Shown here piece after piece: positions 1,329 to 16,337 of a DNA stretch of 64,000 bases (its first letter is position 1; each line of letters begins with the position of its first letter). The stretch is taken from positions 1 through 64,000 of the forward strand of contig JALCBJ010000032.1 in the NCBI GenBank assembly GCA_028066595.1, written 5' to 3'. A program made the position numbers and the translations under genes. Source of the stretch: Thermoanaerobaculia bacterium. Lineage in GTDB: Bacteria; Acidobacteriota; Thermoanaerobaculia; Multivoradales; J023. The notes below the pieces were generated by a model. The model was not told the origin of the DNA, made no database searches, and was given only the letters and a program-made list of their open reading frames with translations.

Positions 1329-2708
1329 TCAATGGTCCGGCCAGGCGAAGAGGCCAGGGTTCAGAAGTCCCTTGGGGTCGTAGCGTCGCTTGGCTTCACA
1401 AACCGAGGACCAGGCGTCGCCGAACTGGCGGGCAAAGCGCTCCGAATCAAAACGCATGGAGCCCGTGAGGTAGTAGGTGCTGCCCATGGACAACGCGAGG
1501 TCGACGAAAGCACGAGAGGCGGCGACGGTATCTTCGGCGGCACTCTGGGGGACACGGGAGTAGAGGCCGATGCCCATAAAGAGCGGTGTATCGGGTACAC
1601 GGAACATGGGTCGCTCGAGACTGTCGCGCGTCATGGGCCACAGGATTGTGTGCTCGACGTGAACGATGCGAGGGAAAATGTGCTGCTCGACCTTGGGGAG
1701 GAAGTCTTCCAGCCGATCCCACGGAACAAGAACGTCGACGAACACTTCGGCGATCCGCGGCGAGATGTGGGTGTCGGCGTGGCCGAGAATGATGAAGTCG
1801 CGCAGGTCGAGGTCTTCGGCATATATCCACTTCGAGAAGCTCAGATCACCGAGAAAAGCCTGGTCGTCAAAGGCTTCTGAATCGTCCGCCTCCAGAGTGA
1901 CGTTGAGTGGGTATAGGTAGGAGTGGAAGGGCAGGCGCTGATCGCCCTGGACCCGAAGACCGTGGTAGCACGGACGAACCATCGCGTCGATGAACTGAGC
2001 TGCGTCACCTTCGACCAGGCGCACATGATCTTCGAGATGGGCACCCAGGTCGTCATAGAGGAGGAAGTAGGTGCGAACACGGCGGCCGCAACGGCGCAGG
2101 CGCTGACGCGATTTGGTGATGATGCCGAACTGACCAAATCCGCCGAGCACGTGATCGAACAGGTCGCGATTCTCATGCTCGCTGCAAGACACTAGCTCGC
2201 CGGTCGGCGTCACAACTTCGAGACTCTCGCAATGGTCGATCTGGGTACCGTAGCGAAAGGTAGACATTCCCAGCCCGGCCGCCGATAGGGTGCCTCCAAC
2301 GCTTGTGCATACGTAGCTGGTGAGAGCAGGAGGGAGCCAGCCCTGAGGCACCGTCATCTCGACAACATCTTTCCACTGGGCCGCGCCTTGGGCTTCTATG
2401 GTGCCGGCTTCCGAGTCGAGGGGCCCGATTCGATCCAAAGAACGGAGGTCGAGAACCAGGCCACCCTCGTTCAGGCTTTGGCCGGCGAAGGAGAACCCTC
2501 CAGCGCGCGGCGAGACGGGAAGATCGTGCCGGTTGGCATACACGACCAACCGGGCGACCTCATCAGCTGTCGCCGGCCGCGCAACAGCTTTCGGCACGCG
2601 GCGGGTGATGGCACCGTAGTCGACAGAGAAGGCGTCGAGGTGTTCGGGGTCAGTATGAACAGGCCCAGAGCAAAGATTCTGCAGGTCTGTCTTCAGCGTC
2701 TTCGACAT
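1329..2708 (-). CDS. FAD-linked oxidase (VAO/cytokinin dehydrogenase-like), last gene of lanthipeptide operon
   Basis: The 459-residue protein has a PCMH-type FAD-binding domain at about residues 38-210. Visible elements are RAGGFSFAGQS near 68-78, then the SVGGTLSAAGLG and YGTQIDH stretches. The C-terminus has YDPKGLLNPGLF, typical of the vanillyl-alcohol-oxidase superfamily. The closest overall resemblance I recognise is to cytokinin dehydrogenase-like oxidases. In many such enzymes a His in an RGxGHS loop links FAD covalently; the aligned residue here is Phe72, so FAD is probably non-covalent. The gene starts 39 bases after the ABC exporter stops, on the same strand, so it is likely co-transcribed with the lanthipeptide genes. 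A role in oxidising the peptide is inference; it could also be an unrelated passenger. Confidence 0.75.
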   Translation of the reverse strand: MSKTLKTDLQNLCSGPVHTDPEHLDAFSVDYGAITRRVPKAVARPATADEVARLVVYANRHDLPVSPRAGGFSFAGQSLNEGGLVLDLRSLDRIGPLDSEAGTIEAQGAAQWKDVVEMTVPQGWLPPALTSYVCTSVGGTLSAAGLGMSTFRYGTQIDHCESLEVVTPTGELVSCSEHENRDLFDHVLGGFGQFGIITKSRQRLRRCGRRVRTYFLLYDDLGAHLEDHVRLVEGDAAQFIDAMVRPCYHGLRVQGDQRLPFHSYLYPLNVTLEADDSEAFDDQAFLGDLSFSKWIYAEDLDLRDFIILGHADTHISPRIAEVFVDVLVPWDRLEDFLPKVEQHIFPRIVHVEHTILWPMTRDSLERPMFRVPDTPLFMGIGLYSRVPQSAAEDTVAASRAFVDLALSMGSTYYLTGSMRFDSERFARQFGDAWSSVCEAKRRYDPKGLLNPGLFAWPDH

Positions 2709-2747
2709 GGAGACTAGTTCCGTTGGTCATCAAGGTGTTCGATGGAG

Positions 2748-4958
2748 TCAGCCACCGGCCACGCCGACGGTGTCGTTCTCGAGCTGTTGACGAATCAACC
2801 GTGCGTAGTGGCCGTCGAGATGCAGCAACTCCTCGTGGGTCCCGCGCTCGCGGATCTGCCCGGCGTCGAGCACCAGGATGCGGTCGGCATCGCGAATGGT
2901 GCTGAGGCGGTGCGCGACGACGATTCGGGTACAACGCAACGCCTTGAGTGTGGTGTCGATACGCTGCTCGGTGAGCACATCGAGATGGCTCGTCGCCTCG
3001 TCGAGAAGGATGATGCGGGGTTCCGCTAGAAGCGCCCGCGCCAACGCAATCCGCTGCAGCTGTCCGCCGGACAACGAACCGCCACGTTCGGAGATGATGG
3101 TCTCGTAGCCCATGGGCATAGCATCGATCTCATCGTGGATCGCCGCCCGCCGTGCGGCCTCTCGAATGGCTTCCAACGGCATGCCGACACGGGTGAGTTC
3201 GATGTTCTGACGGATCGAGCCGGAAAAGAGGGCGGGGTCCTGCAAGACGACGCCGAACTGCTGGCGCAGCGAGTTCAGCGCGATCTCGTCCGCAGAAACG
3301 CCATCGTAAAGGATCTCGCCAGCGCTCGGCGAGTAGAGACCGAGCAGCAACATGCCGAGCGTTGTCTTGCCGGAGCCGGTCGGTCCGACGATGGCAATCT
3401 TCTCTCCCGGCTCGATGTGCAGCGACACTTTGTCCAACACCTTCGGCGACTGCTGCGTGTAACGGAAGCTGACTTCACGCAACTCGACTCCACCCAGCAG
3501 ATCGAAGCTCGGCAGATCGGATCGTAACGGCTCGGGTTCGGTCTCGAGGACATCGAAGATACGGACGAAATGGGCGGCGCCGAACTGAAGCTGCTGGATG
3601 ATCCCGACGAGGGAGCCGAGGGGTTGGAGGATCGCCACGCCGAGGGCGTTGAAGGCGAGCATGGTGCCCAGGCTCATGTCGCCCGTGAGGACAAGCCGCG
3701 CACCGACGAAAAGAAGTGCGAGCGGCGCCAGGCTGCCGATGGCACCGCTAGACGTATGGATGACGGCATTGAGGAAGTTGCGCCGAAGGTTGAGATTGAG
3801 GCGCTCGAAGAAGAGATTCGACCAGCGATCGAGGGCCTGAGTCTCGGATCCGGTGGCCTTCAGTGTCGTGATTCCGGAAAGGGCCTCGACGAGGTAGCCC
3901 TGCGAGACACCGTCCGCCTGCAGGCTCTCCTGCAATAGACGCCGAACCCGACGCGCCAAACCGAGGGGAATCGAGATCTGCACCAAGCCGAGGACGAGGA
4001 CGATCATGCCGAACAGCGGCGCCTGGGAGAGAAGGATCGCCAGGTAGACCAAGACCAGACTACCGTCGAGAATTGCGGCCAGGGTCTGATTGGTCAACAC
4101 CTCGCGGATGATCGTATTGCTGTTGAGGCGCATGATCAGGTCGCCACTGCTGCGTTGCTGGAAGAAAGGCAACGGCAAACGAAGCATGTGCTCGAAGAAG
4201 CCGAGCATCATCTGCGAGTCGAGTCGAGCCTGCAGATAGATGAAGAACGAGTGCCTGAGGAAGATCGTCACCGTCTGCATTACGACGACAACTCCGAGGC
4301 CTAGCCCGAGGATTGCAAGGAGGCCGTCGAGACTGCGCGGCAGGATCTGATCGACGATGATCTTGGTAGCGACCGGTAAGACCAAACCGAGCGCCTGCAA
4401 CAGAAGCGAGCCGGCGAGGATCTGGAGCAGAACGCTCCGTATTCCTGACACGCCAAGGACGTAGCGAAGGTAGGTGCGCCAGGGGCTCACACTCCGTACC
4501 GCCCGGCGATCGAAGTGGATGCTGGGCTCGAAAGTCAGAATGATGCCGGTGAATCCCTCGTCGAACTCCCGTGGTGTCAGGGTTCGACGCCCGAAGGCGG
4601 GATCGACGATGTCGATGGCTTTCGGTGACCATCGCTCGACGACGATGAAGTGCTTGAAGTTCCAATGAACGATCGCAGGGAGCGGCAGGAACTTGAAGTG
4701 TTCGGGCTCTCCCGAGAAGCAACGCGTGCGCAAACCGTGTTCGCGTGCGGTCTTGGCGAGGAGCGCGGCACTGACGCCGTCGCGTCCGGCGCTAATGCAG
4801 TCGTGAAGGTCGGCGACACGAGTCTTACGACCATGAGCCGTCAAAACCATGGCGAGGCAGGCGACACCGCACTCGGCATTACTCTGTTGAAGGATCGGTC
4901 GTATACGACGCGTCCGAAATGCGGCTGACTTCGTGCTGGAGTCTCTGGCCCGCATCAT
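2748..4958 (-). CDS. Peptidase-containing ABC exporter (LanT-type, C39 family)
   Basis: The 736-residue inner-membrane exporter would cleave the leader after a GG motif and export the modified peptide. The N-terminal C39 cysteine-peptidase domain shows QSNAECGVAC with Cys30, then His103 in FKHFIVV and Asp119 in VDPAFG, a complete catalytic triad. A membrane domain follows at about 165-480. The nucleotide-binding domain has Walker A GPTGSGKTT, signature LSGGQLQR and Walker B IILLDEATSHLD. Its two adjacent ATG codons lie directly after the stop of the HlyD-like gene, so the two are translationally linked. The precursor at 11755-11970 carries the matching GG leader end. In NHLM-type systems the exporter works with a HlyD-like adaptor, which fits the gene upstream. 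Confidence 0.9.
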   Translation of the reverse strand: MMRARDSSTKSAAFRTRRIRPILQQSNAECGVACLAMVLTAHGRKTRVADLHDCISAGRDGVSAALLAKTAREHGLRTRCFSGEPEHFKFLPLPAIVHWNFKHFIVVERWSPKAIDIVDPAFGRRTLTPREFDEGFTGIILTFEPSIHFDRRAVRSVSPWRTYLRYVLGVSGIRSVLLQILAGSLLLQALGLVLPVATKIIVDQILPRSLDGLLAILGLGLGVVVVMQTVTIFLRHSFFIYLQARLDSQMMLGFFEHMLRLPLPFFQQRSSGDLIMRLNSNTIIREVLTNQTLAAILDGSLVLVYLAILLSQAPLFGMIVLVLGLVQISIPLGLARRVRRLLQESLQADGVSQGYLVEALSGITTLKATGSETQALDRWSNLFFERLNLNLRRNFLNAVIHTSSGAIGSLAPLALLFVGARLVLTGDMSLGTMLAFNALGVAILQPLGSLVGIIQQLQFGAAHFVRIFDVLETEPEPLRSDLPSFDLLGGVELREVSFRYTQQSPKVLDKVSLHIEPGEKIAIVGPTGSGKTTLGMLLLGLYSPSAGEILYDGVSADEIALNSLRQQFGVVLQDPALFSGSIRQNIELTRVGMPLEAIREAARRAAIHDEIDAMPMGYETIISERGGSLSGGQLQRIALARALLAEPRIILLDEATSHLDVLTEQRIDTTLKALRCTRIVVAHRLSTIRDADRILVLDAGQIRERGTHEELLHLDGHYARLIRQQLENDTVGVAGG

Positions 4959-5543
4959 TCAGGGGTCCAGCCTAGATCCGAATCCGGGAAGCAGTGAGAG
5001 AACCCGCTGATGGTCGACCTCCACCTCGACGCGCAAGGGCCTACTCTGCCAGGGCTGGAGCGGTGCGCCTTCGCCGAGACGGGCCATGGCGACGACGACA
5101 GGATCACCTGCCAAGAACGGGTCGGCTGGCTCGATAGCGAAACGCTGTCGCAACGCGCTCGCGCTGACGAGGGTTGGCTCGACCTCGTCGATCCGAGTCA
5201 CAAAAAGCGGCTCGAACGAGCTGCTTTCCTGTGCGTCAAAAACCAACAATCTCTGCTCGGGTAAGACCCGATCGAGACCCTCGGAAGGTAATGACACGAT
5301 GAGGGACCAGTCGCCGGGACCTGATTCGACCAGCAGACCTGCGCCGCCGAGGGTCACGGGAACCTCCGCGACCCCGGTCAGGCCCACGAGCCCGGCGAGG
5401 CCAGCCAGAAGCAACCAGATCCACGGAAAGAGCTTCGGCTGGACCAACCGGAGGACGACAATCTTCTGTCGGTTCTCCAGGTAGAGCCGGTGCGCGTGTT
5501 CGCGGAAGATGGACTCGCGCTCTTGCGTAGAGGATTCGCTCAT
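4959..5543 (-). CDS. Short HlyD-like membrane protein of the lanthipeptide exporter
   Basis: About 194 residues from ATG 5543; a TTG three codons upstream is an alternative start, and neither has a clear ribosome-binding site. The N-terminal part is cytoplasmic and rich in charged residues (RLYLENRQKIVVLRLVQP), followed by one membrane helix near residues 41-60 (WIWLLLAGLAGLVGL). The outer part then carries barrel-sandwich-like strands (VPVTLGGAGLLVESG). It resembles the reduced membrane-fusion subunits of NHLM-type bacteriocin exporters and lacks the long coiled-coil hairpin of full HlyD proteins (about 400 residues). It is adjacent to the C39 ABC exporter, so it probably forms an adaptor with it. 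Confidence 0.6.
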   Translation of the reverse strand: MSESSTQERESIFREHAHRLYLENRQKIVVLRLVQPKLFPWIWLLLAGLAGLVGLTGVAEVPVTLGGAGLLVESGPGDWSLIVSLPSEGLDRVLPEQRLLVFDAQESSSFEPLFVTRIDEVEPTLVSASALRQRFAIEPADPFLAGDPVVVAMARLGEGAPLQPWQSRPLRVEVEVDHQRVLSLLPGFGSRLDP

Positions 5544-5579
5544 CAGAAGCAACTCGAGGGCCGATGTCCGAAGCTACGC

Positions 5580-6299
5580 TCAGTGGTACGGGATGATCAT
5601 CCACGGCAAAGCGTACGCTTCGGCCACCAGAGCACGAAAGCGCCTGCGCACCCACCTCGGATCGAGATGGCCCGCGGTCGACTCTTCCCTTTCCGGGCTT
5701 CCGTCGTCGATCGACGCCACGAAGTCTACGATGTCCCGAAACCAAAACGGATCGCCGCCTTCCGATAACCGAAGCGGGAACTGGCCCTCGAGCATCTGCC
5801 AGCCGATTTCCACGTGCCGGGCCATCGTGTCCCAGCGGTACCGCGCTCGCGCGACTTGTGCCCGCTGTATCTGGACGTCGAGGTAACGAACGCCGAAGAT
5901 GATGAGGAAGCGATGCCTGTCGATGGCGTCGTCGACGGCTTTCAGGCTATGCTGGAACATCGCTTCCACTTGCTCCCACTGTCGATGCCGGTAGTGATCG
6001 TAGGCGACAGCTGCGGCGTGGTACATATCGACGATACGGCAGACGGAATCTGACGCGTCTTTCAGCTCGGTCGCCGCCGCGCCACTCGAGCCGGCGAGCA
6101 GGGTGCGTGCCGCCTCCATGTCACCCCGATGCATCCGGCGGACGGCCTGACGGATGCGCTTCGTTACCCGCAGAGCGCCGGACCGCTGATAAGTCGCTGC
6201 CCAAGCCTCGGCCTCCCGATCGACACATTCGAGCAGGCTGAGCCAACCATCGGCTTGGCCCAGAAAGCGCACGATCTCTTTCTCGAAATCATCACTCAT
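5580..6299 (-). CDS. Unrecognised 239-residue helical protein in lanthipeptide operon
   Basis: No family recognised with confidence. The protein looks all-helical and soluble, with Arg-rich amphipathic helices (RVTKRIRQAVRRMHRGDMEA near 44-63; VQIQRAQVARARYRWDTMAR in the middle). It has no signal peptide and no Cys cluster. The stretch with R, H, GD and AA spacing loosely recalls translin-like RNA-binding helices, but this is weak. It lies between the SpaB_C-like gene (35 bases upstream) and the HlyD-like gene (36 bases downstream) on the same strand, so it is very likely part of the operon. Roles in leader recognition, tRNA binding or self-protection are all possible and untested. Confidence 0.7.
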   Translation of the reverse strand: MSDDFEKEIVRFLGQADGWLSLLECVDREAEAWAATYQRSGALRVTKRIRQAVRRMHRGDMEAARTLLAGSSGAAATELKDASDSVCRIVDMYHAAAVAYDHYRHRQWEQVEAMFQHSLKAVDDAIDRHRFLIIFGVRYLDVQIQRAQVARARYRWDTMARHVEIGWQMLEGQFPLRLSEGGDPFWFRDIVDFVASIDDGSPEREESTAGHLDPRWVRRRFRALVAEAYALPWMIIPYH

Positions 6300-6334
6300 C
6301 GCTCACGGCTTCCGTCGCTCGGCCGGCACGCGCC

Positions 6335-7351
6335 TCACGAAAACTCTCCCGCGAACGGAAAGATCGAAAAGTCTTCATTCGACCGTGGCTGCGATCGAAA
6401 CGTCCGGGCCAGGAGGTGGTGCGTGAAAGCTTCATCAACCCGGCTGAGGCCAAGAGCGTTTGCCCAGCCATGAAAGAGCTTGAAGACGACGGGAAACGAA
6501 CGCTCCGCGGAGAACGGGTCGACGATCACGCACGCTGCCTTGGCGCAGCGTTCCGCCTCGTTGACCAGACGCGTCACGGCCTTTGCAGCAGGCGTGGGTT
6601 CGGCTGGAGTGAGATCGAGAGTCGACCGCAGCAAGTCGATCTGAGCGCTACGGTCGGCGGCGAATCGTTCGAGGCGGCGGAGCATCTCCTCACCGTGGGC
6701 ACTGCCGCCGTTGCGTTTGAGCAGAGGAGCACGGATCAGCCAATCGCGATGGTAGTGCACGTAGTCCTCCGCCCTGGGCCCGAGCCCCGGCAGAGCCTCG
6801 GCCAGGAGCCCGATCAACACGGCCTGACGGCGCGTAGTGAGCCCCTCGCCCTCGTCCTCCGCGGCGGCATCAACGATCGTATCGCTGGCTAGCGACAGGG
6901 CATGGGTCAGCGCCTCTACACAAGCGTCGTCTTCGAGAAAAGGCGACGGACCGAGTGATACAGGATGGCGCCGATAGGTCGTGAAGCTCAGCAGCGGACG
7001 GCAATCGTCTTCGGAGCCGTCTTCGACGTCGATAGGGGGCGCACGGGACAGAGAGGAAACCGTAGTCTCGGCCGGCTCGGCGGGCGGTAAGGAGACCGGA
7101 CGATCCAAGAAGTATGCCGCCGCTTCGTGAAGGGCTCCACGGAGCGACTCCTCTCGGTCGTTGTCGGCATGCAGCCGCAACTTGAGGCACTCACCAGACT
7201 CGTCGTAGCGCAACCACCACATCGCCGCGCCGCGGTCCTCCTGTTCGAGCGAGCGCCAGAACCGAGCAACGACCCGACCAATCACGAGATCAAGCGCACA
7301 GTCCGCAGAGAGATCGGCCGTGACAATGGGGTCGGCGGCATGGCCTGTCAT
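6335..7351 (-). CDS. Stand-alone SpaB_C-like (thiopeptide-type/lantibiotic dehydratase C-terminal) protein
   Basis: The 338-residue protein resembles the SpaB_C glutamate-elimination domain family. MWWLRYDESGECLKLRLHAD matches the conserved start, where an aromatic strand precedes RY and a K/R-LRL strand. LLSFTTYRRHPVSLG followed by an acidic patch matches the YRRE-type middle motif. The helical C-terminus ends with a polar HH pair (DEAFTHHLLART). In class I systems this domain eliminates glutamate from tRNA-dependent glutamylated Ser/Thr; relatives form the pyridine ring in thiopeptides. LanM does not need it, so its presence beside a LanM is unusual. It starts 4 bases after the LanM stop. 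The family call rests on pattern recognition only. Confidence 0.6.
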   Translation of the reverse strand: MTGHAADPIVTADLSADCALDLVIGRVVARFWRSLEQEDRGAAMWWLRYDESGECLKLRLHADNDREESLRGALHEAAAYFLDRPVSLPPAEPAETTVSSLSRAPPIDVEDGSEDDCRPLLSFTTYRRHPVSLGPSPFLEDDACVEALTHALSLASDTIVDAAAEDEGEGLTTRRQAVLIGLLAEALPGLGPRAEDYVHYHRDWLIRAPLLKRNGGSAHGEEMLRRLERFAADRSAQIDLLRSTLDLTPAEPTPAAKAVTRLVNEAERCAKAACVIVDPFSAERSFPVVFKLFHGWANALGLSRVDEAFTHHLLARTFRSQPRSNEDFSIFPFAGEFS

Positions 7352-7355
7352 ACGC

Positions 7356-10300
7356 TCAAATCTCCGCGTTGACCGGCATGGGGGCAGGATCCACTGGATC
7401 CAGGATTCCGGAGATCGGCCTCAACGCCAGAACTGCAGGTACCTTGTCGGGCGCCAGTCGACGGAGGAGGCCGAAGCCTATGCCAGCGAGGCCGACCATC
7501 AACCCGGGCGTCTCGATTGCCATCGGTAGGCCACAACGCCAACTGCCTAGGCTGAGCTGGCCTGCGACGTCTTGGTAGCGACGGTCGATGTCGTCGCGGA
7601 GGTCGAGTTCGGGACAAGCCGCATCCGCACAGACAAGCGATTCGAGATTGCCCAGGTCGCCGTGGCAAAGGGAATGGTTGCGGCCGAAACCTCCAGCGAG
7701 GGTCGTACGTGCTGCGATACGGATCTCCTCGCGCAGAACATCGGACGGCTCGTGGCGGAGGATGAGGGCACGCGACACGATGACACCGGGCGCACCGTGG
7801 CACCAGTTGACTGGATCGCCGACGTCCTCGTCTACCCGTAGGTCACGCCAGTTACCGCTCTTCGGCCGGAACAAGCTGCGTTCGTATTCGAGTGCCCGTC
7901 GGGCCGTCTCGCGCAGCGTCTTGTCACCGGTGATCGCGGCGGCTTCGAAAAGGGCGGCAGCGATACCACCGGCACCGTGTGAGAAGCCAGCGAGGGGCTC
8001 CTCCGCCTCGTCCGTCGTGTACCAGCCGCAGCCCCGGGGCAGGTCGACCGCCGCCGCTACGAGGCGTTGCGCAGCCTGTTTCGCCAAGCTCTCCAGTACG
8101 AGATCATCGGATCCTCGGCGCATGGCCGAGAGGGCGAGAATGACGCCCGCCGACCCGGAGATGACGTCGAAGCTGTTGTCGGCGGCGATCCGCGGCCCGA
8201 GTCTCGCCACCAGGTCGAGAGCGGTACGTCGCAGAGCCGCATCGCCCCAGAGCGCCGCCAACTGATCGAGGGTATATGCCAGGCCGACCGTGCCCGTGAA
8301 GGCACCGATCGAAACTTCCGCGTCTTCGGCCGCGACACGGCGCAGAAGCGTTTCGCAAGACTGCCGGGCAAGTAGCCTTGCTGCAGGGTCACCGGTGACT
8401 TCGCCGAGGCAGCCGAGAAAGAGGGTGACGCCCGCTTGGCCGCCGTAAAGACTGTCGTCGAGGTAGCCGATCTTGAACGCACCGCGTGGCGCCGGACGCA
8501 CGCCCACCCAGCGCACTGAGTCATCGTGGAGGGCTTGTTCGATCAAGTGGCTGCCGATTCGCGCCGCAAGGTTCTCCAGGCTCACTCCGGGCGTTGCCGA
8601 CCGCGGGTGAGTCCGTGATTCTACCGGCACTGCGTCGCGTTCTGGGTCGGCGGTGGAGAGCAGCGCGATCGAGGCGCGGATGTACCAAATCTGACGCACG
8701 AGGTCGGCTTCGGAGAAGCCTTGTAAACGTTCGAATAGGCCTTCGACCGCCGACTGGCTGAAGAAATCCTCCAGCACCTCGCCGTCTGGTGTGAAGAGCG
8801 CACGAGATCTTGGTCGAGTGGTGAAGCGGGGGATATCACGTTGCCACAAGGCGCGCTGCTCGGCGGCAATCAACCGTTGAAGGAAGGGTCGGCGAGCTAC
8901 CTGTTTCCAAAGCTTGTCGAAAAAGCGCTGTCGATCGAGCGCGTCGCGAAGCAGGTCGGGGTGGAAGCTCTCACGCAACATGAGCCCATAGACTGCAGTC
9001 GGGCGAAGCAGCACGCGAACCTCGTGTTCGAGCATGGACGCAATCGGGCCGTCTTCCGCCAGCCAATCGTCCCGCCGCTCCAACAGATGACGATAGAGGG
9101 CCGAAAAGCCCTCGACAATGGCGTCGACGTAGTGGATGGCGTCCGCCGGCCGGCCCTCGACCGTCGGACGGTGGTGCGATCGCAACGAGATCGTTCTCGT
9201 CCTGCGTGCGTAGTGCATCGTGTCGGTCTCATGGTCGGCCCAATATGCTTCGGGGCGCGGCGGCTCCTGACCTTCGGGGCCGCCCATACCGCTCACATCG
9301 AGTCCTGGGGAATCTTCGTTTTCCCAGTTGCGAACGGGAAGCAAGCCAACCTCGACCAAGGTGTTCCTGAGCAGGTCGTCCGCCCTGGGATCGTCGAGAG
9401 GAGGGCCGGGTTGGAGTAGCGACTCGAGATCGATGACGTACGGTGTGTCACCGACGGCGATGAGATTCTCGAAATGAATGTCGGTCGTTCGCAGAGCGTA
9501 AAGGAGGGCGAGGTACGACCCCTGGCGCAGATAGAAGCGTCGCACCTCCTCCTCGGTCGCGCACGGCTCGGCGATCAGTTGCTGCATGTAGCCGTAGCTG
9601 CCGCGATCAAGAGCGGCGACCTCAGGTAGGGTCGGCTCGAAGCCCTCCTGCGCCAAAGTACGCAACACCTCCTGGAATGCCTCTGTCATCGCCAAGGACC
9701 GAGGTTTGTAGACGAGACGGCGGCCCGATGTGAACACAAGCAAGGCCACTGAACGTCCGCCGTCATGGCGGTCACCTGCGCCGAAACGCACGCCTGAAAG
9801 GCGGTCGCCCGCCACAAATCCGCTGAAGGTGCGCAGGATAGCGGGCCAGTCGGACACGAGGCGTTCGAATAGCTCAGCTACCACGTCCTTCCAGACGTCG
9901 ATCGCCTCGACTAGCTGGCGCGTCAGAACCGGCACCTCGCGCAGAATGGCGAGGGCCCGCTGTGTGTCAGCGAGCAGGACGGCAAACTGCCGGAATCGCT
10001 CCCTAGGGTCATCGTGGATGAGCTCGCCTTGAAGACGCGCTATGTTCATCTCGAGGACGAGAGTGCGCACAGGCCAGCTCAGCAGCTCGAAAGGCAGGGT
10101 GCCGAGCACTAGCTCCGTAATCCTTTCGGAGCAAACGGGACCGTCGGAAGGCGCGCTCGCCAGGGGCCCGAGACGGGCGCCTAGCTCGCTCGTAGCGTGG
10201 CGCACCAGTGGCTCGATGAAACCCCAGAACGAGCCTTCCACGGTGCCTTGCAAGATCGGCGGAGCCGCGATCCGCTTTTCCGACGACGAGCCGCCACCGT

Positions 10301-10562
10301 AGCAGGTCTCGATGCGTCTCAACCAGGCTGGCCGCTCGCCGGGCGCTTCTTCGACGGACTCCCCTAGAAGGGAAGTGAGCTTGCTGTGGTCGAGGCCGTC
10401 GAGATCCAACCGACGTCCGAACAGCTCACGGTCTTCGAATGGCTCGTCAGCGCTCCAGCGGGCGAGGCGAAGGCGACCACGATCGAGGTCGACCGGACCG
10501 TAGGTCGGTCGACGCAGCCTCTCGGACACGGTCAGCGTAGCGCCGTAGGGAAAGTCACTCAC
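7356..10562 (-). CDS. lanM: Type II lanthipeptide synthetase LanM
   Basis: The bifunctional enzyme phosphorylates and dehydrates Ser/Thr, then adds Cys thiols to make (methyl)lanthionine. The N-terminal dehydratase (DUF4135) has the kinase-like Lys in LVYKPRSL (near 286), DIHFENL (near 361-367) and the metal-binding VIDLE (near 377-381). The C-terminal LanC-like cyclase (about 680-1068) has GFSHGAGG, NWCHGAPG and CHGDLG, giving the Zn ligands Cys near 921 and Cys/His near 966-967. I place the start at GTG 10562: it overlaps the upstream stop (GTGA) and has GAGG 7 bases before it, whereas the longest frame begins at 10592 without such support. The length of 1068 residues is normal for LanM. 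It sits between a conserved unknown gene and the SpaB_C-like gene. Confidence 0.95.
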   Translation of the reverse strand: MSDFPYGATLTVSERLRRPTYGPVDLDRGRLRLARWSADEPFEDRELFGRRLDLDGLDHSKLTSLLGESVEEAPGERPAWLRRIETCYGGGSSSEKRIAAPPILQGTVEGSFWGFIEPLVRHATSELGARLGPLASAPSDGPVCSERITELVLGTLPFELLSWPVRTLVLEMNIARLQGELIHDDPRERFRQFAVLLADTQRALAILREVPVLTRQLVEAIDVWKDVVAELFERLVSDWPAILRTFSGFVAGDRLSGVRFGAGDRHDGGRSVALLVFTSGRRLVYKPRSLAMTEAFQEVLRTLAQEGFEPTLPEVAALDRGSYGYMQQLIAEPCATEEEVRRFYLRQGSYLALLYALRTTDIHFENLIAVGDTPYVIDLESLLQPGPPLDDPRADDLLRNTLVEVGLLPVRNWENEDSPGLDVSGMGGPEGQEPPRPEAYWADHETDTMHYARRTRTISLRSHHRPTVEGRPADAIHYVDAIVEGFSALYRHLLERRDDWLAEDGPIASMLEHEVRVLLRPTAVYGLMLRESFHPDLLRDALDRQRFFDKLWKQVARRPFLQRLIAAEQRALWQRDIPRFTTRPRSRALFTPDGEVLEDFFSQSAVEGLFERLQGFSEADLVRQIWYIRASIALLSTADPERDAVPVESRTHPRSATPGVSLENLAARIGSHLIEQALHDDSVRWVGVRPAPRGAFKIGYLDDSLYGGQAGVTLFLGCLGEVTGDPAARLLARQSCETLLRRVAAEDAEVSIGAFTGTVGLAYTLDQLAALWGDAALRRTALDLVARLGPRIAADNSFDVISGSAGVILALSAMRRGSDDLVLESLAKQAAQRLVAAAVDLPRGCGWYTTDEAEEPLAGFSHGAGGIAAALFEAAAITGDKTLRETARRALEYERSLFRPKSGNWRDLRVDEDVGDPVNWCHGAPGVIVSRALILRHEPSDVLREEIRIAARTTLAGGFGRNHSLCHGDLGNLESLVCADAACPELDLRDDIDRRYQDVAGQLSLGSWRCGLPMAIETPGLMVGLAGIGFGLLRRLAPDKVPAVLALRPISGILDPVDPAPMPVNAEI

Positions 10563-11632
10563 GTCGCCACCTCGGCGGTACGGCGGGCCCAAAAGTGGCG
10601 GACGCCGAGGTACGCTTTGGCGGCGACCATACGGTTCGGCAGAATTCCGATCTTGAAGTGGTTGAGAGTTCTGGCGAACGTACTCATGACCTCGGACCCA
10701 AAGGAGCGAGAGCCCTTGAGGAGATGGGCAGGCCAGAGGTCGAAATCGTCGGCCTCAGTGGAGTATCCCAACCAGTCGAACAGAACGGTGGCCTTGTCCC
10801 GGCGACACATTCCGTGACGTTGCAGAAGACCGAGAAGTCCCCTGGTCTTCTCACGGGAGCCGTCGCTGATGACGCACTCCAGGCCTATCGCCGGCCTCAC
10901 GGTGGTCGACACCGACAGATCTAGGTTCATTCCGTCGACGTAGGCGGCCAGTTCTTCCAGCACCAGGCGCAGTAGCTCGCGGCTACCGGGCCAGCCGATG
11001 GCCTCCAGGTAGTCGAGAATAGCCACCCGCGACAAACGCCGAATGCACAGCCGGACATCGTCCCCCGGCCGGGCCAACAGGAGGCCCACTTGGAAGATGA
11101 CTCCGCCTTCAGGCAGTTCTGCGAAGCAGCGCGAGAGCAGATCACGCTGAGACGCTGACAAGTGGCAGCCGCGCAGTCGCTCGATCAGCTCGAGACTCAG
11201 TTCGGGATAGTTCCTCGGCTCTCCCGGAGAGTAGCCGAAAAATAGGCTCGGTTCGGGGACGCCGTGGAAGCCCTCGGGAAGGTCGAATTCGAGCCAAGAG
11301 TCCCGAATCGGCGACAGCCTCGGATTGTGGTGCCAATCCGCAAGAAATCGCCCGACAACGGTCCAGGGCGAACGCTTGCCCAGCGGTTCCGGCGCACTCA
11401 CTTCCGCACCGCCATCCGCCCACGCAGCGCGGCTTCCGTCGTCTTCGATCACCGCGACGAGAAAGTCAGCGTCGGCGCGAGAACTCCCGAGATGGCACTC
11501 GAAGCCGAAGTTCGACGATGGGGGCAGCCTCTCGGCAACCCGAGAGATGCGCGCGGAGTGCTCCGGCTTCACGAGTGCGGGCGGAAGATGGGGAGCGACA
11601 ATCTCGAAATAGTTCCGCGTAGAGAGCGACAT
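10559..11632 (-). CDS. Unknown protein between lanthipeptide precursor and LanM
   Basis: 357 residues, no named family recognised. No signal peptide or membrane segment. The middle and C-terminal parts look like a compact mixed fold: PSLFFGYSPGEP, GVIFQVGLLLARPGDDVRLC, YLEAIGWPGSRELL, VRPAIGLECVISDGS, then KIGILPNRMVAAKAYLGVRH. I recall conserved hypothetical proteins with this FQVG / IGWPG / GLEC / KAYL pattern beside LanM genes elsewhere, but I cannot verify it. It follows the precursor gene by 122 bases and overlaps LanM by 4 bases, so stoichiometric co-expression with LanM is likely. A scaffold, substrate-delivery or immunity role is inference. Confidence 0.75.
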   Translation of the reverse strand: MSLSTRNYFEIVAPHLPPALVKPEHSARISRVAERLPPSSNFGFECHLGSSRADADFLVAVIEDDGSRAAWADGGAEVSAPEPLGKRSPWTVVGRFLADWHHNPRLSPIRDSWLEFDLPEGFHGVPEPSLFFGYSPGEPRNYPELSLELIERLRGCHLSASQRDLLSRCFAELPEGGVIFQVGLLLARPGDDVRLCIRRLSRVAILDYLEAIGWPGSRELLRLVLEELAAYVDGMNLDLSVSTTVRPAIGLECVISDGSREKTRGLLGLLQRHGMCRRDKATVLFDWLGYSTEADDFDLWPAHLLKGSRSFGSEVMSTFARTLNHFKIGILPNRMVAAKAYLGVRHFWARRTAEVAT

Positions 11633-11754
11633 TCTTTGATTGGACTCGCGAGAGCCTGTTCAGTTCAAGGGCCACGCAGAAGGGAAACAACGCGGAGGAA
11701 TGGGATGAGCGGCAGACAGTACAGGAGACAGAACCCTGCCTCCTGTGGAAAGGA

Positions 11755-11970
11755 TCAACCAACCTCAGGCTCAGGCCCATCATCTCCAGGCGGCGGATTG
11801 TCGCAGCTCCAGCAAAGACAGGTCGGGCCGCCGACCACGTCTTCCATCGCCTCATCGGTAAGCTCGATCAGTCCAGCCGGGTTCTCTGGCAGAAGAGCGC
11901 GCTCTTCTTCGCTGAGCTCGGCTCGGAACTCGGAATCCCTCCATGCGCGGATGATCTTCTCGTTCTTCAC
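11755..11970 (-). CDS. lanA: Lanthipeptide precursor peptide (mersacidin/lichenicidin-type leader)
   Basis: 71 residues from GTG 11970, with GAGGAG 6-7 bases upstream. The leader follows the type II pattern: IIRAWRDSEFRAELS, LPENPAGLIEL, then MEDVVGG, where GG at 47-48 is the C39 cleavage site. The predicted core is residues 49-71, PTCLCWSCDNPPPGDDGPEPEVG split as PTCLCWSC plus a 15-residue acidic Pro/Gly tail. Dehydratable residues are Thr50 and Ser55; Cys are 51, 53 and 56. At most two thioether rings are possible, so one Cys stays free or is oxidised. It is the first gene of the operon, behind tandem direct repeats at 12059-12092. Confidence 0.9.
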   Translation of the reverse strand: MKNEKIIRAWRDSEFRAELSEEERALLPENPAGLIELTDEAMEDVVGGPTCLCWSCDNPPPGDDGPEPEVG

Positions 11971-13820: not shown

Positions 13821-14579
13821 CTACTCTTGGCGGACCACAGACCCGACGTTCTCGCCTCGCAGCACGCGCAGAATATTGCCCTCGACGCTCAGGTCGAAGA
13901 GCTGGATAGGGATGTGGTTTTCGCGACAGATGCTGATGGCCGCGGCGTCCATGAATCCGAGGCTCCGCTCCAAGACCTGTTGGTAGGTCACGGTTTCCAG
14001 CAGCTCGGCATCCGGGTGTTTTCTCGGATCAGCGCTGTAGATCCCGGGAACCTTGGTGGCCTTGAGCAGGACTTCCGCCTTGATCTCGGAGGAGCGGAGT
14101 GCCGCCGCAGAGTCGGTGGTGAAGAAGGGGCTGCCGGTGCCGGCAGCAAAGATCACCACGCGACGCTTCTCCAAGTGACGGATGGCACGACGCCGTATGA
14201 AGCGCTCCGCCACTTCGCGGATCTCGATAGCGGTCTGGACGCGCGTATCGACTTTCCGCTTCTCCAGTGCATCCTGGAGTGCCAAGGAGTTGATCACGGT
14301 CCCCAGCATGCCCATGTAGTCGCCGGTGACGCGATCGATACCCTGCTGGCTAGCCGCCAGCCCTCGGATGATGTTGCCGCCGCCGATGACGACGGCGATC
14401 TGTACTCCGAGGGCTGCGGCTTCCTTCAGCTCGTCGGCAATCTTGCCGACGACCGTCTCGTCGAGGCCGAAGGGCTTGTCACCCATCAGGGCCTCGCCCG
14501 ACAGCTTGAGCATCACCCGCCGGAACACGGCTGGGAATGCATCGGTCTCTGGCTGCTCGGTCGTCGGCAGGTCGGCCAT
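13821..14579 (-). CDS. pyrH: UMP kinase
   Basis: 252 residues. It phosphorylates UMP to UDP in pyrimidine nucleotide synthesis. Family motifs are visible: MLKLSGEALMG, VIGGGNIIRG, DYMGMLGTVINSLALQDAL, and the ATP-binding GTGSPFFTTDSAAALR. The N-terminus has about 15 extra residues (MADLPTTEQPETDAF). The gene begins 6 bases after tsf ends, the classical rpsB-tsf-pyrH-frr order. Confidence 0.97.
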   Translation of the reverse strand: MADLPTTEQPETDAFPAVFRRVMLKLSGEALMGDKPFGLDETVVGKIADELKEAAALGVQIAVVIGGGNIIRGLAASQQGIDRVTGDYMGMLGTVINSLALQDALEKRKVDTRVQTAIEIREVAERFIRRRAIRHLEKRRVVIFAAGTGSPFFTTDSAAALRSSEIKAEVLLKATKVPGIYSADPRKHPDAELLETVTYQQVLERSLGFMDAAAISICRENHIPIQLFDLSVEGNILRVLRGENVGSVVRQE

Positions 14580-14585
14580 GCCCGA

Positions 14586-15239
14586 TCAGGCTCCGGCCGC
14601 GGCCGCTGCGACCTCGGCAGCGAAGTCTTCCTGCTTCTTCTCGATACCCTCGCCGAGCTCGTAGCGAACGAACCGCCGAACCTGGATGTTCTCGCCGATG
14701 GTCGCCACCTTCTCGGTGATCATCTGCTGCAACGTCTTGTCGGGATCCTTGACGAAGGCCTGCTCGAGCAGCACGGCCTCGGCGTAGTACTTTTCGATCT
14801 TGCCCTCGACGATCTTGGGAATGATGTTCTCGGGCTTACCCTCGGCACGCATCTGCTCTGCATAGATCTCCCGCTCGCGGTCGAGGACATCCCCGGTCAC
14901 TTCCTCGCGACGGACGAAGCGCGGATTGGCGGCAGCGATGTGCATGGCGATATCGCGCACGAGGTTCTGGAAATCGTCGGTCCGGGCCACGAAATCGGTC
15001 TCGCAGTTGACCTCCACCAGCACTCCGATCTTGCCGCCGGCGTGAATGTAGGAGCCAACGGCTCCCTCTGCGGCCACACGCCCGGCCTTCTTCTCGGCCG
15101 CTGCGATGCCCTTCTTGCGAAGCGTATCGACCGCCTGTTCGAGGTCGCCGGAAGTCTCTTCCAACGCCTTCTTACATTGCAGCATGGGAGCGCCGGTGCG
15201 CTCGCGAAGCTCCTTCACCATCTGAGCGGTGATCTTCAT
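14586..15239 (-). CDS. tsf: Elongation factor Ts (short form)
   Basis: 217 residues. This is the guanine-nucleotide exchange factor for EF-Tu. The UBA-like N-terminus [20 protein letters not shown] and the TDFVAR motif (as [13 protein letters not shown]) are intact. It is shorter than the E. coli protein (about 280 residues) and closer to the Thermus-type short EF-Ts with one core subdomain. A strong stem-loop lies in the rpsB-tsf spacer. Confidence 0.96.
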
Positions 15240-15307
15240 GGTTCTCTCTCCTCGGTACTTTCGGTATGGGTTCGTCGGTCTTGAAAATCGGTCTGTTCCA
15301 GACGCAC

Positions 15308-15344
15308 GACAAGGTCAGTGAGCGGATGCCCGACTGACCTTGTC
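15308..15344. promoter_or_regulatory. 12-bp stem-loop in the rpsB-tsf spacer
   Basis: GACAAGGTCAGT (15308-15319) and ACTGACCTTGTC (15333-15344) form a perfect 12-bp stem with a 13-nt loop. No T-tract follows on the minus strand, so it is not a classical terminator. It lies between rpsB and tsf, where an attenuator or processing site adjusts S2:EF-Ts ratios in other bacteria. A second 8-bp hairpin (15372-15390) sits closer to the rpsB stop. Confidence 0.55.
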
Positions 15345-15395
15345 TGGATCCCCACAGGCGAGATCTCTACCGCCGGGCGGCGCGCCCGGCGCGCC

Positions 15396-16337
15396 CTACT
15401 CTTCTTCCGTGCCGTCCGCTTCAGATGCCTCCGGCTCGGAGGAATCCGAGGCCTCGGTGGGCGCGGCCTCCTCAGCCGTAGCCTCCTCGGTGGCAGGTGT
15501 CTCGGCCGCCTCTTCGGCCGAAGCTTCCTCCGAAGGAGAGTCCTCGGCGGCGGCTTCCTCGGCGGTAGCTTCCGCAGCGGTGCCTTCCTCGGCGGCGGCT
15601 TCCGCAGCGGTGGCGGCCTCAGGTGCATCCTTGGCTGCGATCATCTCCGCCTCCTGGAGCTTGCCGGCTCCAGAGAGGTAGGCGTCGGCGATCTTGGCGG
15701 TGAAGAGACGGATCGTACGAATGGCATCGTCATTGCCGGGAATGACGTAGTCGATCTGCTCGGGATCGCAGTTCGTGTCGACGATGCCGATCACGGGGAT
15801 GCCCAGCTTGTTGGCCTCGGCGACGGCGATCGCTTCCCGCTTGGGATCGACGACGAACAGCGCGTCCGGCAGCGACGTCATCTCCCGAATACCTTCGAGG
15901 TTCCGCTGCAGCTTCAGACGCTCGCGGTCGAGCCGCAGCTTCTCTTTCTTCAGCAGCCCCGACTCCTCGTCGTCGAGGCGCGCCTCGATGTCCTTCAGCC
16001 GATCCACCGAGTTACGGATCGTGACGAAGTTGGTCAGCGTACCGCCGAGCCAGCGATGGGTGACGAAGTACTGACCCGAGCGCCGGGCGTGCCGAGTGAT
16101 CGACTCGTGCGCTTGGCGCTTGGTGCCGACGAAGAGAATCTTGCGACCGGTGCGACCGAGCTGGAAGACGTATTCTGCTGCCTCGTGAAAGCGGCGCAGA
16201 GTCTTCTGCAAGTCGATGATGTAAATCCCGTTCCGCTTGCCGAAGATGTAACGACGCATCTTCGGGTTCCAGCGACGGGTTTGGTGACCGAAGTGGACCC
16301 CCGCTTCGAGGAGATCGCGCATTCTGAGCTCGACCAA
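15396..16337 (-). CDS. rpsB: 30S ribosomal protein S2 with long acidic tail
   Basis: 313 residues. Residues 1-225 are ordinary S2: [68 protein letters not shown]. From about 226 a Glu/Ala-rich extension of roughly 85 residues follows (repeats like [18 protein letters not shown]), low-complexity and strongly acidic. Such tails occur on S2 in several GC-rich phyla. The gene overlaps nothing and starts 11 bases after rpsI ends. Confidence 0.97.

Follow-up and report, generated by a model that had tools for sequence, protein, structure and literature searches.

Eight genes occupy positions 1329-11970 of the 64,000-nucleotide stretch of a Thermoanaerobaculia bacterium genome analysed here (the window; source genome G000, 7.5 Mb in 228 contigs, 95% complete). 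All of them are encoded on the minus strand and either overlap or are separated by short gaps (Table 1); from lanA on the intergenic distances are 122 nt, an overlap, 4, 35, 27, 0 and 39 nt. The codon-usage caller favours a LanM start at 10562, which overlaps the stop of the 357-aa gene, and a longer start at 10592 is possible. A promoter scan of the operon found no promoter-like site, and terminator-like matches were at the level of shuffled sequence. Four tRNA genes (Thr, Gly, Tyr, Thr) lie at 197-924, just past the FAD gene. On the other flank there are an RNA-methyltransferase-like gene and genes for translation (by eye frr, pyrH, tsf and rpsB). The operon seems to be inserted into a block of translation genes.

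Table 1. Genes of the operon in the order of transcription, with the evidence for each assignment
Feature	Position	Strand	Evidence
lanA precursor, 71 aa	11755..11970	-	TIGR03898, 73 bits; SZUA-115 homologue 77% identical
P357, 357-aa protein, proposed ABBA-type peptide tryptophan prenyltransferase	10559..11632	-	Fused homologues and Trp-core precursors
LanM (dehydratase DUF4135 and LanC-like cyclase domain)	7356..10562, or start 10592	-	TIGR03897, PF13575, PF05147, motifs
SpaB_C-like protein, SpaBC1 subfamily, stand-alone	6335..7351	-	PF14028, 32.8 bits
P239, 239-aa protein, partner of SpaB_C-family proteins	5580..6299	-	SZUA-115 homologue beside SpaBC
Short HlyD-like membrane-fusion protein, probably export	4959..5552	-	Hydrophobic stretch; SZUA-115 homologue beside C39
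C39 peptidase ABC exporter	2748..4958	-	PF03412, PF00664, PF00005; 71-72% identical homologue
FAD oxidase, cytokinin-dehydrogenase-like, without GHS	1329..2708	-	PF01565, PF09265; PDB matches

The class II core and its conservation in SZUA-115

An earlier note, made from the sequence alone, had read these genes as a lanthipeptide operon with unusual extra genes, and the profile searches support a class II system. The product of lanA has the properties of a class II precursor, namely a Gly-Gly leader, Ser/Thr and Cys in the core and a location near LanM. The leader is of the mersacidin type, ends in VVGG (the note had seen a GG leader) and matches the mersacidin/lichenicidin family TIGR03898 well above the cut-off of 23.5 bits. 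Behind it follows the core PTCLCWSCDNPPPGDDGPEPEVG with a single Trp, which offers just one Thr, one Ser and three Cys. LanM combines the DUF4135 dehydratase (PF13575) with the LanC-like domain (PF05147) and scores 865.7 bits against TIGR03897, as expected of a class II enzyme. Active-site residues of LanM and C39 had been seen in the note; the motifs LVYKP, DIHFEN, FSHG, NWCHG and SLCHG in LanM and QSNAECGVAC and HF in the C39 exporter are present. The same genome contains a second LanM-like ORF of 626 aa on contig C130 (L009 5132-7012); relative to the LanM of the window it aligns from residue 363 onward, and the N-terminal part is missing.

Acidobacteria bacterium SZUA-115, a metagenome-assembled genome of the same order, possesses close homologues of all eight genes on three contigs. 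The first contig carries lanA (77% identity), P357 (51%) and the N-terminal part of LanM in two pieces (43% and 61%). The second carries the HlyD-like gene (40%), C39 (71-72%) and the FAD gene (60%), with the C-terminus of LanM (58%) on the opposite strand, and the third the SpaB_C-like (39-40%) and 239-aa (38%) genes. LanM, C39 and the SpaB_C-like gene are frameshifted in this assembly, and the order of the blocks differs from that in the window. In both genomes, lanA directly precedes P357 and the FAD gene directly follows C39. The core of the SZUA-115 precursor, GSCVCWSCDNPAPKAPG, keeps the Trp and shares [T/S]CxCWSCDNP with the window. Between the two genomes dN/dS (NG86) is 0.17/2.39 in lanA, 0.49/1.81 in the gene of the 357-aa protein and 0.68/2.23 in that of the 239-aa protein; dS is saturated, and the direction alone is meaningful. 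Judging from the eight homologues and these values, the operon is not a chance assembly. That all of its genes act on one peptide, as the note had assumed, becomes likelier with a gene set common to two genomes, although this falls short of proof. The SpaB_C-like, 239-aa and FAD genes, whose absence from orthologous loci had been named as the observation that would speak against the note's reading, are all present in SZUA-115, but the first two are on a contig separate from LanM.

Six further LanM loci of nearer relatives were compared. Five of them (L095-L099) contain lanA and LanM but, over the 19 kb read per locus, none of the genes for the 357-aa, SpaB_C-like and 239-aa proteins; a homologue of the 357-aa gene is present at the sixth, L094. 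The three genes can therefore be regarded as additions to a common lanA/LanM core.

P357 and its association with tryptophan cores

The 357-aa protein (P357) had been called unknown. It indeed matches no Pfam or NCBIfam family, but it proved to belong to a family that accompanies RiPP genes and is linked with Trp cores and with terpene cyclases. The family was found at 26 places. Of these, 17 are in the order of the source genome (in 16 of 72 genomes), five elsewhere in the phylum and four on plasmids of Azospirillum B510, Nostoc UHCC 0926, Pseudanabaena galeata and Acaryochloris 'Moss Beach'. A search of a phylum sample with an earlier two-row profile found P357 in 9 of 396 genomes. LanM is encoded in the same fetched stretch as P357 at seven loci (L041, L047, L048, L049, L094, L129 and L131).

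P357 is associated with tryptophan. A Gly-Gly precursor with a Trp core adjoins P357 at 15 of the 17 places in the order; Trp is the first core residue in ten of these, it follows after two or three residues in three, and the other two are lanA of the window and of SZUA-115. At the remaining two places there is a GG-less ORF ending in GWV (G297:C4) or no clear precursor (G152). Cores adjoining P357 include WTGDPGS, WDGNGGGGG, WTNPTNNNGGG, WSGDEPGGGGTGG, WTGDPPPPGTGGGG, WAGNNPPPDPPPGGGP and DIWPPP; in the first of these, from G297, Trp is the sole aromatic residue. A Nif11-type leader (TIGR03798) scored above the cut-off in five of ten small ORFs scanned, two of the ten not being of the P357-adjacent kind. 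Outside the order Trp cores were seen at L043 (both precursors), L049 and L047, where they number at least four (four of the five precursors listed in full, out of eight). Trp-bearing ORFs without GG lie beside P357 at L040 and L050, and cores without Trp are the one at L041 and all five of the Nostoc locus L048.

In core lists compiled by hand, Trp is present in 17 of 18 cores adjoining P357 and in 5 of 18 remaining GG cores (Fisher p 8e-5, a guide only, as are all such p-values for rows related by descent), and it is the first residue in 10 of 18 versus 1 of 18. These lists leave out L038, L039, L040, L042, L044 and L047-L050, which have no GG core or were not compiled, and L098, which has GA in place of GG. 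Trp also occurs in three of five cores of LanM-only loci of relatives, and on its own it is weak evidence.

A radical-SAM cyclophane route for the GG-W precursors was considered and rejected: the motif CxxxCxxC, sought within the N-terminal 150 residues of the products of called genes longer than 200 aa, was seen at just 2 of 21 loci, once at L130 (in a gene that looks housekeeping-like by eye) and twice at L042.

Several P357 loci showed further features. L045 carries seven tandem GG precursors at 13956-15675, mostly with CTGCEGCDRCNGCDG-type cores, near a pair of P357 and a GG-W precursor. At L126 (7806-15028) P357 is accompanied by a precursor GG-DTAWPPPPPPPGP, a second precursor ELDGGHDTVYATTSQQNDVTHNDATELT and a protein that resembles an ATP-grasp enzyme by eye; this is possibly a graspetide locus. 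On plasmid pAB510a of Azospirillum sp. B510 (L047, 2-5904) eight proteusin-type precursors, at least three of them ending in KW, lie on the strand opposite to the P357 gene. A homologue of a 584-aa neighbour of P357 on this plasmid, 41% identical, likewise adjoins P357 in Pseudanabaena (L049).

In homologues, P357 is fused to terpene cyclases. At L039 it is followed in the same protein by a class II terpene cyclase domain like that of MstE (PDB match to MstE, E 4.6e-31), and at L044 it is joined to the same domain, 35% identical to that of L039. An SQHop-type domain is encoded by the gene next to P357 at L040 and L038, and at L042 P357 is fused to an N-terminal stretch weakly linked to that of L040 (E 5e-6). 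Genes that by eye resemble those for asparagine synthase and PqqD are situated close to both fusions (L039 and L044), a setting like that of lasso-peptide loci; neither locus yielded a precursor.

Homology searches tied P357 to no known enzyme: none of 14 members matched a Pfam prenyltransferase, and PDB profile searches returned no solved prenyltransferase, the best matches (E 0.57 and 0.26) being unrelated proteins. These PDB and Pfam searches thus linked P357 by sequence to no ABBA prenyltransferase that has been characterised or solved. The single-sequence AF2 model (pLDDT 36) is too low for use of its fold. By eye, the family alignment A5 shows strand pairs separated by helix pairs about five times, an alternation that fits an ABBA barrel, and E115, D117, R188, R194, H325, K327, K339 and Y341 are invariant. 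Prenyltransferases of the trans-IDS type (ComQ/PalQ-like) are all-helical, and this type was rejected for P357 on account of the same alternation. What does tie the family to prenyl chemistry and to Trp substrates is genetic: the MstE-like fusions and the Trp cores. From these two associations we infer that P357 is an ABBA-type peptide Trp prenyltransferase.

In the P357 tree the window copy grouped with that of SZUA-115 (100/100), and the two were joined by Azospirillum (95/92). These three copies, the cyanobacterial ones and the fusions make up one side of the deepest split (100/99), and the other side holds twelve copies of the order, whose precursors are GG-W or GG-x-W. Five of the twelve belong to genomes of the same family as the window, a hint that P357 of the window was acquired horizontally.

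The SpaB_C-like protein, P239 and the remaining genes

The SpaB_C-like protein exceeds the cut-off of PF14028 (24.4 bits), a shorter piece scoring 21.9 bits in the genome search, and stays below that of TIGR03891 (29.3 bits, cut-off 48.45). It is the sole PF14028 match at E 0.001 in the source genome. A LanB N-domain was matched neither in this genome (95% complete) nor in that of SZUA-115 (92% complete). In relatives, the same subfamily adjoins a LanB N-domain protein of about 900 aa (L007, L035 and L036) or is fused to one (L037), and L007 and L036 encode an additional, separate canonical PF14028 protein.

The alignment, in which rows L067 and L071 (wrong reading frames) were ignored, showed H[LI]R[LF]R and RYGG to be kept in five canonical rows. 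In the six rows of the SpaBC1 subfamily the first Arg of H[LI]R[LF]R is replaced by Lys and RYGG is lost; the window protein reads CLKLR and VSLGP at these stretches and retains a later His. The elimination site consists of Arg/Arg/Arg/His positions which we take to be those mapped from NisB; alignment of the window protein to canonical copies suggests substitutions at two of the four, Arg to Lys and Arg to Ser. The subfamily has a signature of its own, YHRDWLIRxPLL. Because of the altered stretches and the lack of a LanB N-domain match in the genome, it is unlikely that the protein eliminates glutamate or serves as half of a dehydratase here. A PDB profile search gave chance-level matches only. 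The subfamily was found in 2 of 297 genomes of a phylum sample by single-sequence search and in 7 of 196 relatives by profile (one weak), and it had no match among plasmid records. Two exact patterns matched a single locus in the genome contigs, patterns of this kind being too narrow to gauge rarity.

The 239-aa protein (P239) has no match above chance level in Pfam or NCBIfam. An AF2 model made with one homologue was all-helical, at a low confidence (pLDDT 49). P239 is present in 7 of the 72 genomes of the order, and all seven are among the 16 with P357 (hypergeometric p 8e-6, a guide only, the genomes being related). In the phylum sample it had two matches among 396 genomes, both in the order, with few candidates scored per genome. 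In six of the seven genomes P239 lies near a SpaB_C-family gene; for the seventh, G305, neither the stretch read nor the profile search contained one. Because P239 adjoins SpaB_C genes and co-occurs with P357, we conclude from gene context that the two proteins constitute a putative module linked to P357.

At two SpaB_C loci the precursor cores are ICSIWCCSG (L008 9498-9662) and GDCDSWWCCSN (L007 11219-11371), which resemble CLCWSCDN of the window in that Trp is joined to Cys. The PF14028-type proteins at L036 (13892-14818) and L101 (7659-8585), in loci with 239-aa-type genes, weakly match the thiopeptide pyridine synthase family NF045556 (21.5 and 35.7 bits, respectively; cut-off 325).

The gene preceding C39 had been described as a short HlyD. 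One hydrophobic stretch (residues 44-62), its position and a 40% identical homologue beside C39 in SZUA-115 speak for this, but no Pfam family, of the HlyD type or any other, was matched even at E 1. The FAD oxidase contains the FAD_binding_4 and Cytokin-bind domains of cytokinin dehydrogenases, which are also its best PDB matches (E 4e-49). GHS is the covalent-flavin motif of these enzymes, and the window protein reads RAGGFSFAGQS where it is expected. Its gene comes after C39 in SZUA-115 as in the window and is for this reason a probable member of the operon; that the enzyme acts on a prenyl group is speculation.

Proposed pathway and relation to known systems

In our judgement the product of the operon is probably a class II lanthipeptide whose tryptophan is prenylated. 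LanM would dehydrate the Thr and Ser at core positions 2 and 7 and use two of the three Cys in [T/S]CxCWSC to close (methyl)lanthionine rings, the ring pattern being a prediction. P357, as a soluble ABBA-type peptide prenyltransferase, would add an isoprenoid to the only Trp of the core, at position 6, both the transfer and its site being predicted. The operon has no terpene cyclase, so the chain would probably stay linear, unless it is altered by the FAD oxidase or by the SpaB_C-like/P239 pair. C39 and the short HlyD-like protein would cut behind Gly-Gly and may export the product. The order of these steps is likewise putative.

P357 could also modify Trp without prenyl transfer, for example by hydroxylation, crosslinking or transfer of another group, with the cyclase fusions representing a separate tailoring activity. 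The lack of homology to known prenyltransferases would agree with this, as would the weak match of some GG-W precursors to XyeA, a Trp cyclophane family (25.1 bits at L128, cut-off 33). Nevertheless we think it unlikely, given that MstE-like cyclases, the partners of P357 at L039 and L044, act on prenyl chains, that a radical-SAM cyclophane maker was not seen at most of the loci scanned, and that no cofactor motif is seen in P357. Rather less probable is a scheme in which the substrate of P357 and of the SpaB_C-like/P239 pair is another peptide, with its gene at a different site, so that they would be mere neighbours of the LanM genes. lanA lies directly before P357 in both genomes with its core Trp conserved, and a pattern scan found no GG-W precursor within the window's first 20 kb; this has to be set against SZUA-115, in which SpaBC and P239 are on another contig, and against L131, where a separate GG-W precursor without Cys accompanies P357 next to a LanM locus.

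We regard it as very improbable that the operon has two dehydration systems, with the SpaB_C-like protein supplying the elimination half of a LanB-type enzyme. The PF14028 score of this protein and, in relatives, the company or fusion of its subfamily with LanB N-domain proteins suggest such a role. Neither the window genome nor SZUA-115 has a match to that domain, however, two of the relatives (L007 and L036) have a canonical PF14028 protein of their own, and the SpaBC1 rows show Arg to Lys and no RYGG; the window copy keeps the later His. The pair accompanies LanM in the window and LanB in relatives, and all P239 genomes have P357. On these grounds we tentatively entertain a new RiPP tailoring module that has lost its dehydratase role and works with P357 on Trp/Cys-rich cores, although the odds are somewhat against it. 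It may install a second change, for instance on a dehydroamino acid by the prenyl-Trp or as a link from Trp to Cys or from Trp to Dha. If so, this prenylated lanthipeptide would bear a kind of chemistry that has not been seen before.

Prenylation of Trp in the product would give a testable function to P357, an enzyme family unnamed in Pfam and NCBIfam, and would turn its 26 places into candidate prenylated-RiPP loci. Some of these are apparently minimal pairs of one enzyme and a leader with a GG-W-G/P tail, which would suit biochemistry and the tagging of peptides at Trp. Lanthipeptide prenylation would extend to the Acidobacteriota and to a mersacidin-type leader. The analysis has also brought a diverged SpaB_C subfamily to light.

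The literature searched contained no report of this gene set, of prenylated lanthipeptides from Acidobacteriota or of SpaB_C in a LanM operon; Hubrich et al. or supplements may list loci of the P357 or GG-W type. The chemistry itself has been reported. In the cyanobacterium Moorena producens the ABBA enzyme MppC, encoded in a LanM cluster, geranylates Trp of a lanthipeptide (PMC12715784, which credits lanthipeptide prenylation also to Hubrich et al.). NctPC is described in the review PMC13290415 as a fusion of an ABBA Trp geranylgeranyltransferase (P domain) of low similarity to cyanobactin enzymes and an MstE-like cyclase. Given the Trp cores and terpene cyclases associated with the P357 family, part of the non-standard tailoring in the operon is most likely Trp prenylation.

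The mpp system (MppE/MppM/MppC, PMC12715784) resembles the operon in its class II LanM, in a soluble ABBA prenyltransferase within the cluster (proposed here) and in a Trp within a short thioether-ringed core (predicted here). It differs in the Nif11-like leader and heptapeptide core of MppE, where the window has a mersacidin-type leader, and the window operon adds the SpaB_C-like, P239 and CKX-like FAD genes; MppC is likened to P357 by description and gene context, not by sequence. As described in PMC13290415, NctPC shares with the P357 homologues of L039 and L044 the fusion of P followed by an MstE-like C domain, and a Trp substrate. This likeness is one of described architecture and not of sequence, and P357 of the window stands alone in an operon without a cyclase. 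With the mersacidin/lichenicidin lantibiotics (TIGR03898) the operon has the leader family, LanM and the C39 exporter in common, and it departs from them in its CxCWSC core with one Trp and its extra tailoring genes. The SpaB_C-like protein matches LanB elimination domains and thiopeptide-type SpaB_C proteins (PF14028, TIGR03891) at the family level of PF14028, but it stands alone beside LanM, with no LanB N-domain found, altered stretches and the YHRDWLIRxPLL signature. The FAD oxidase, finally, shares both domains and its closest PDB chains with the cytokinin dehydrogenases (CKX) and differs from them in having GGFS for GHS, in being bacterial and in its location in a RiPP operon.
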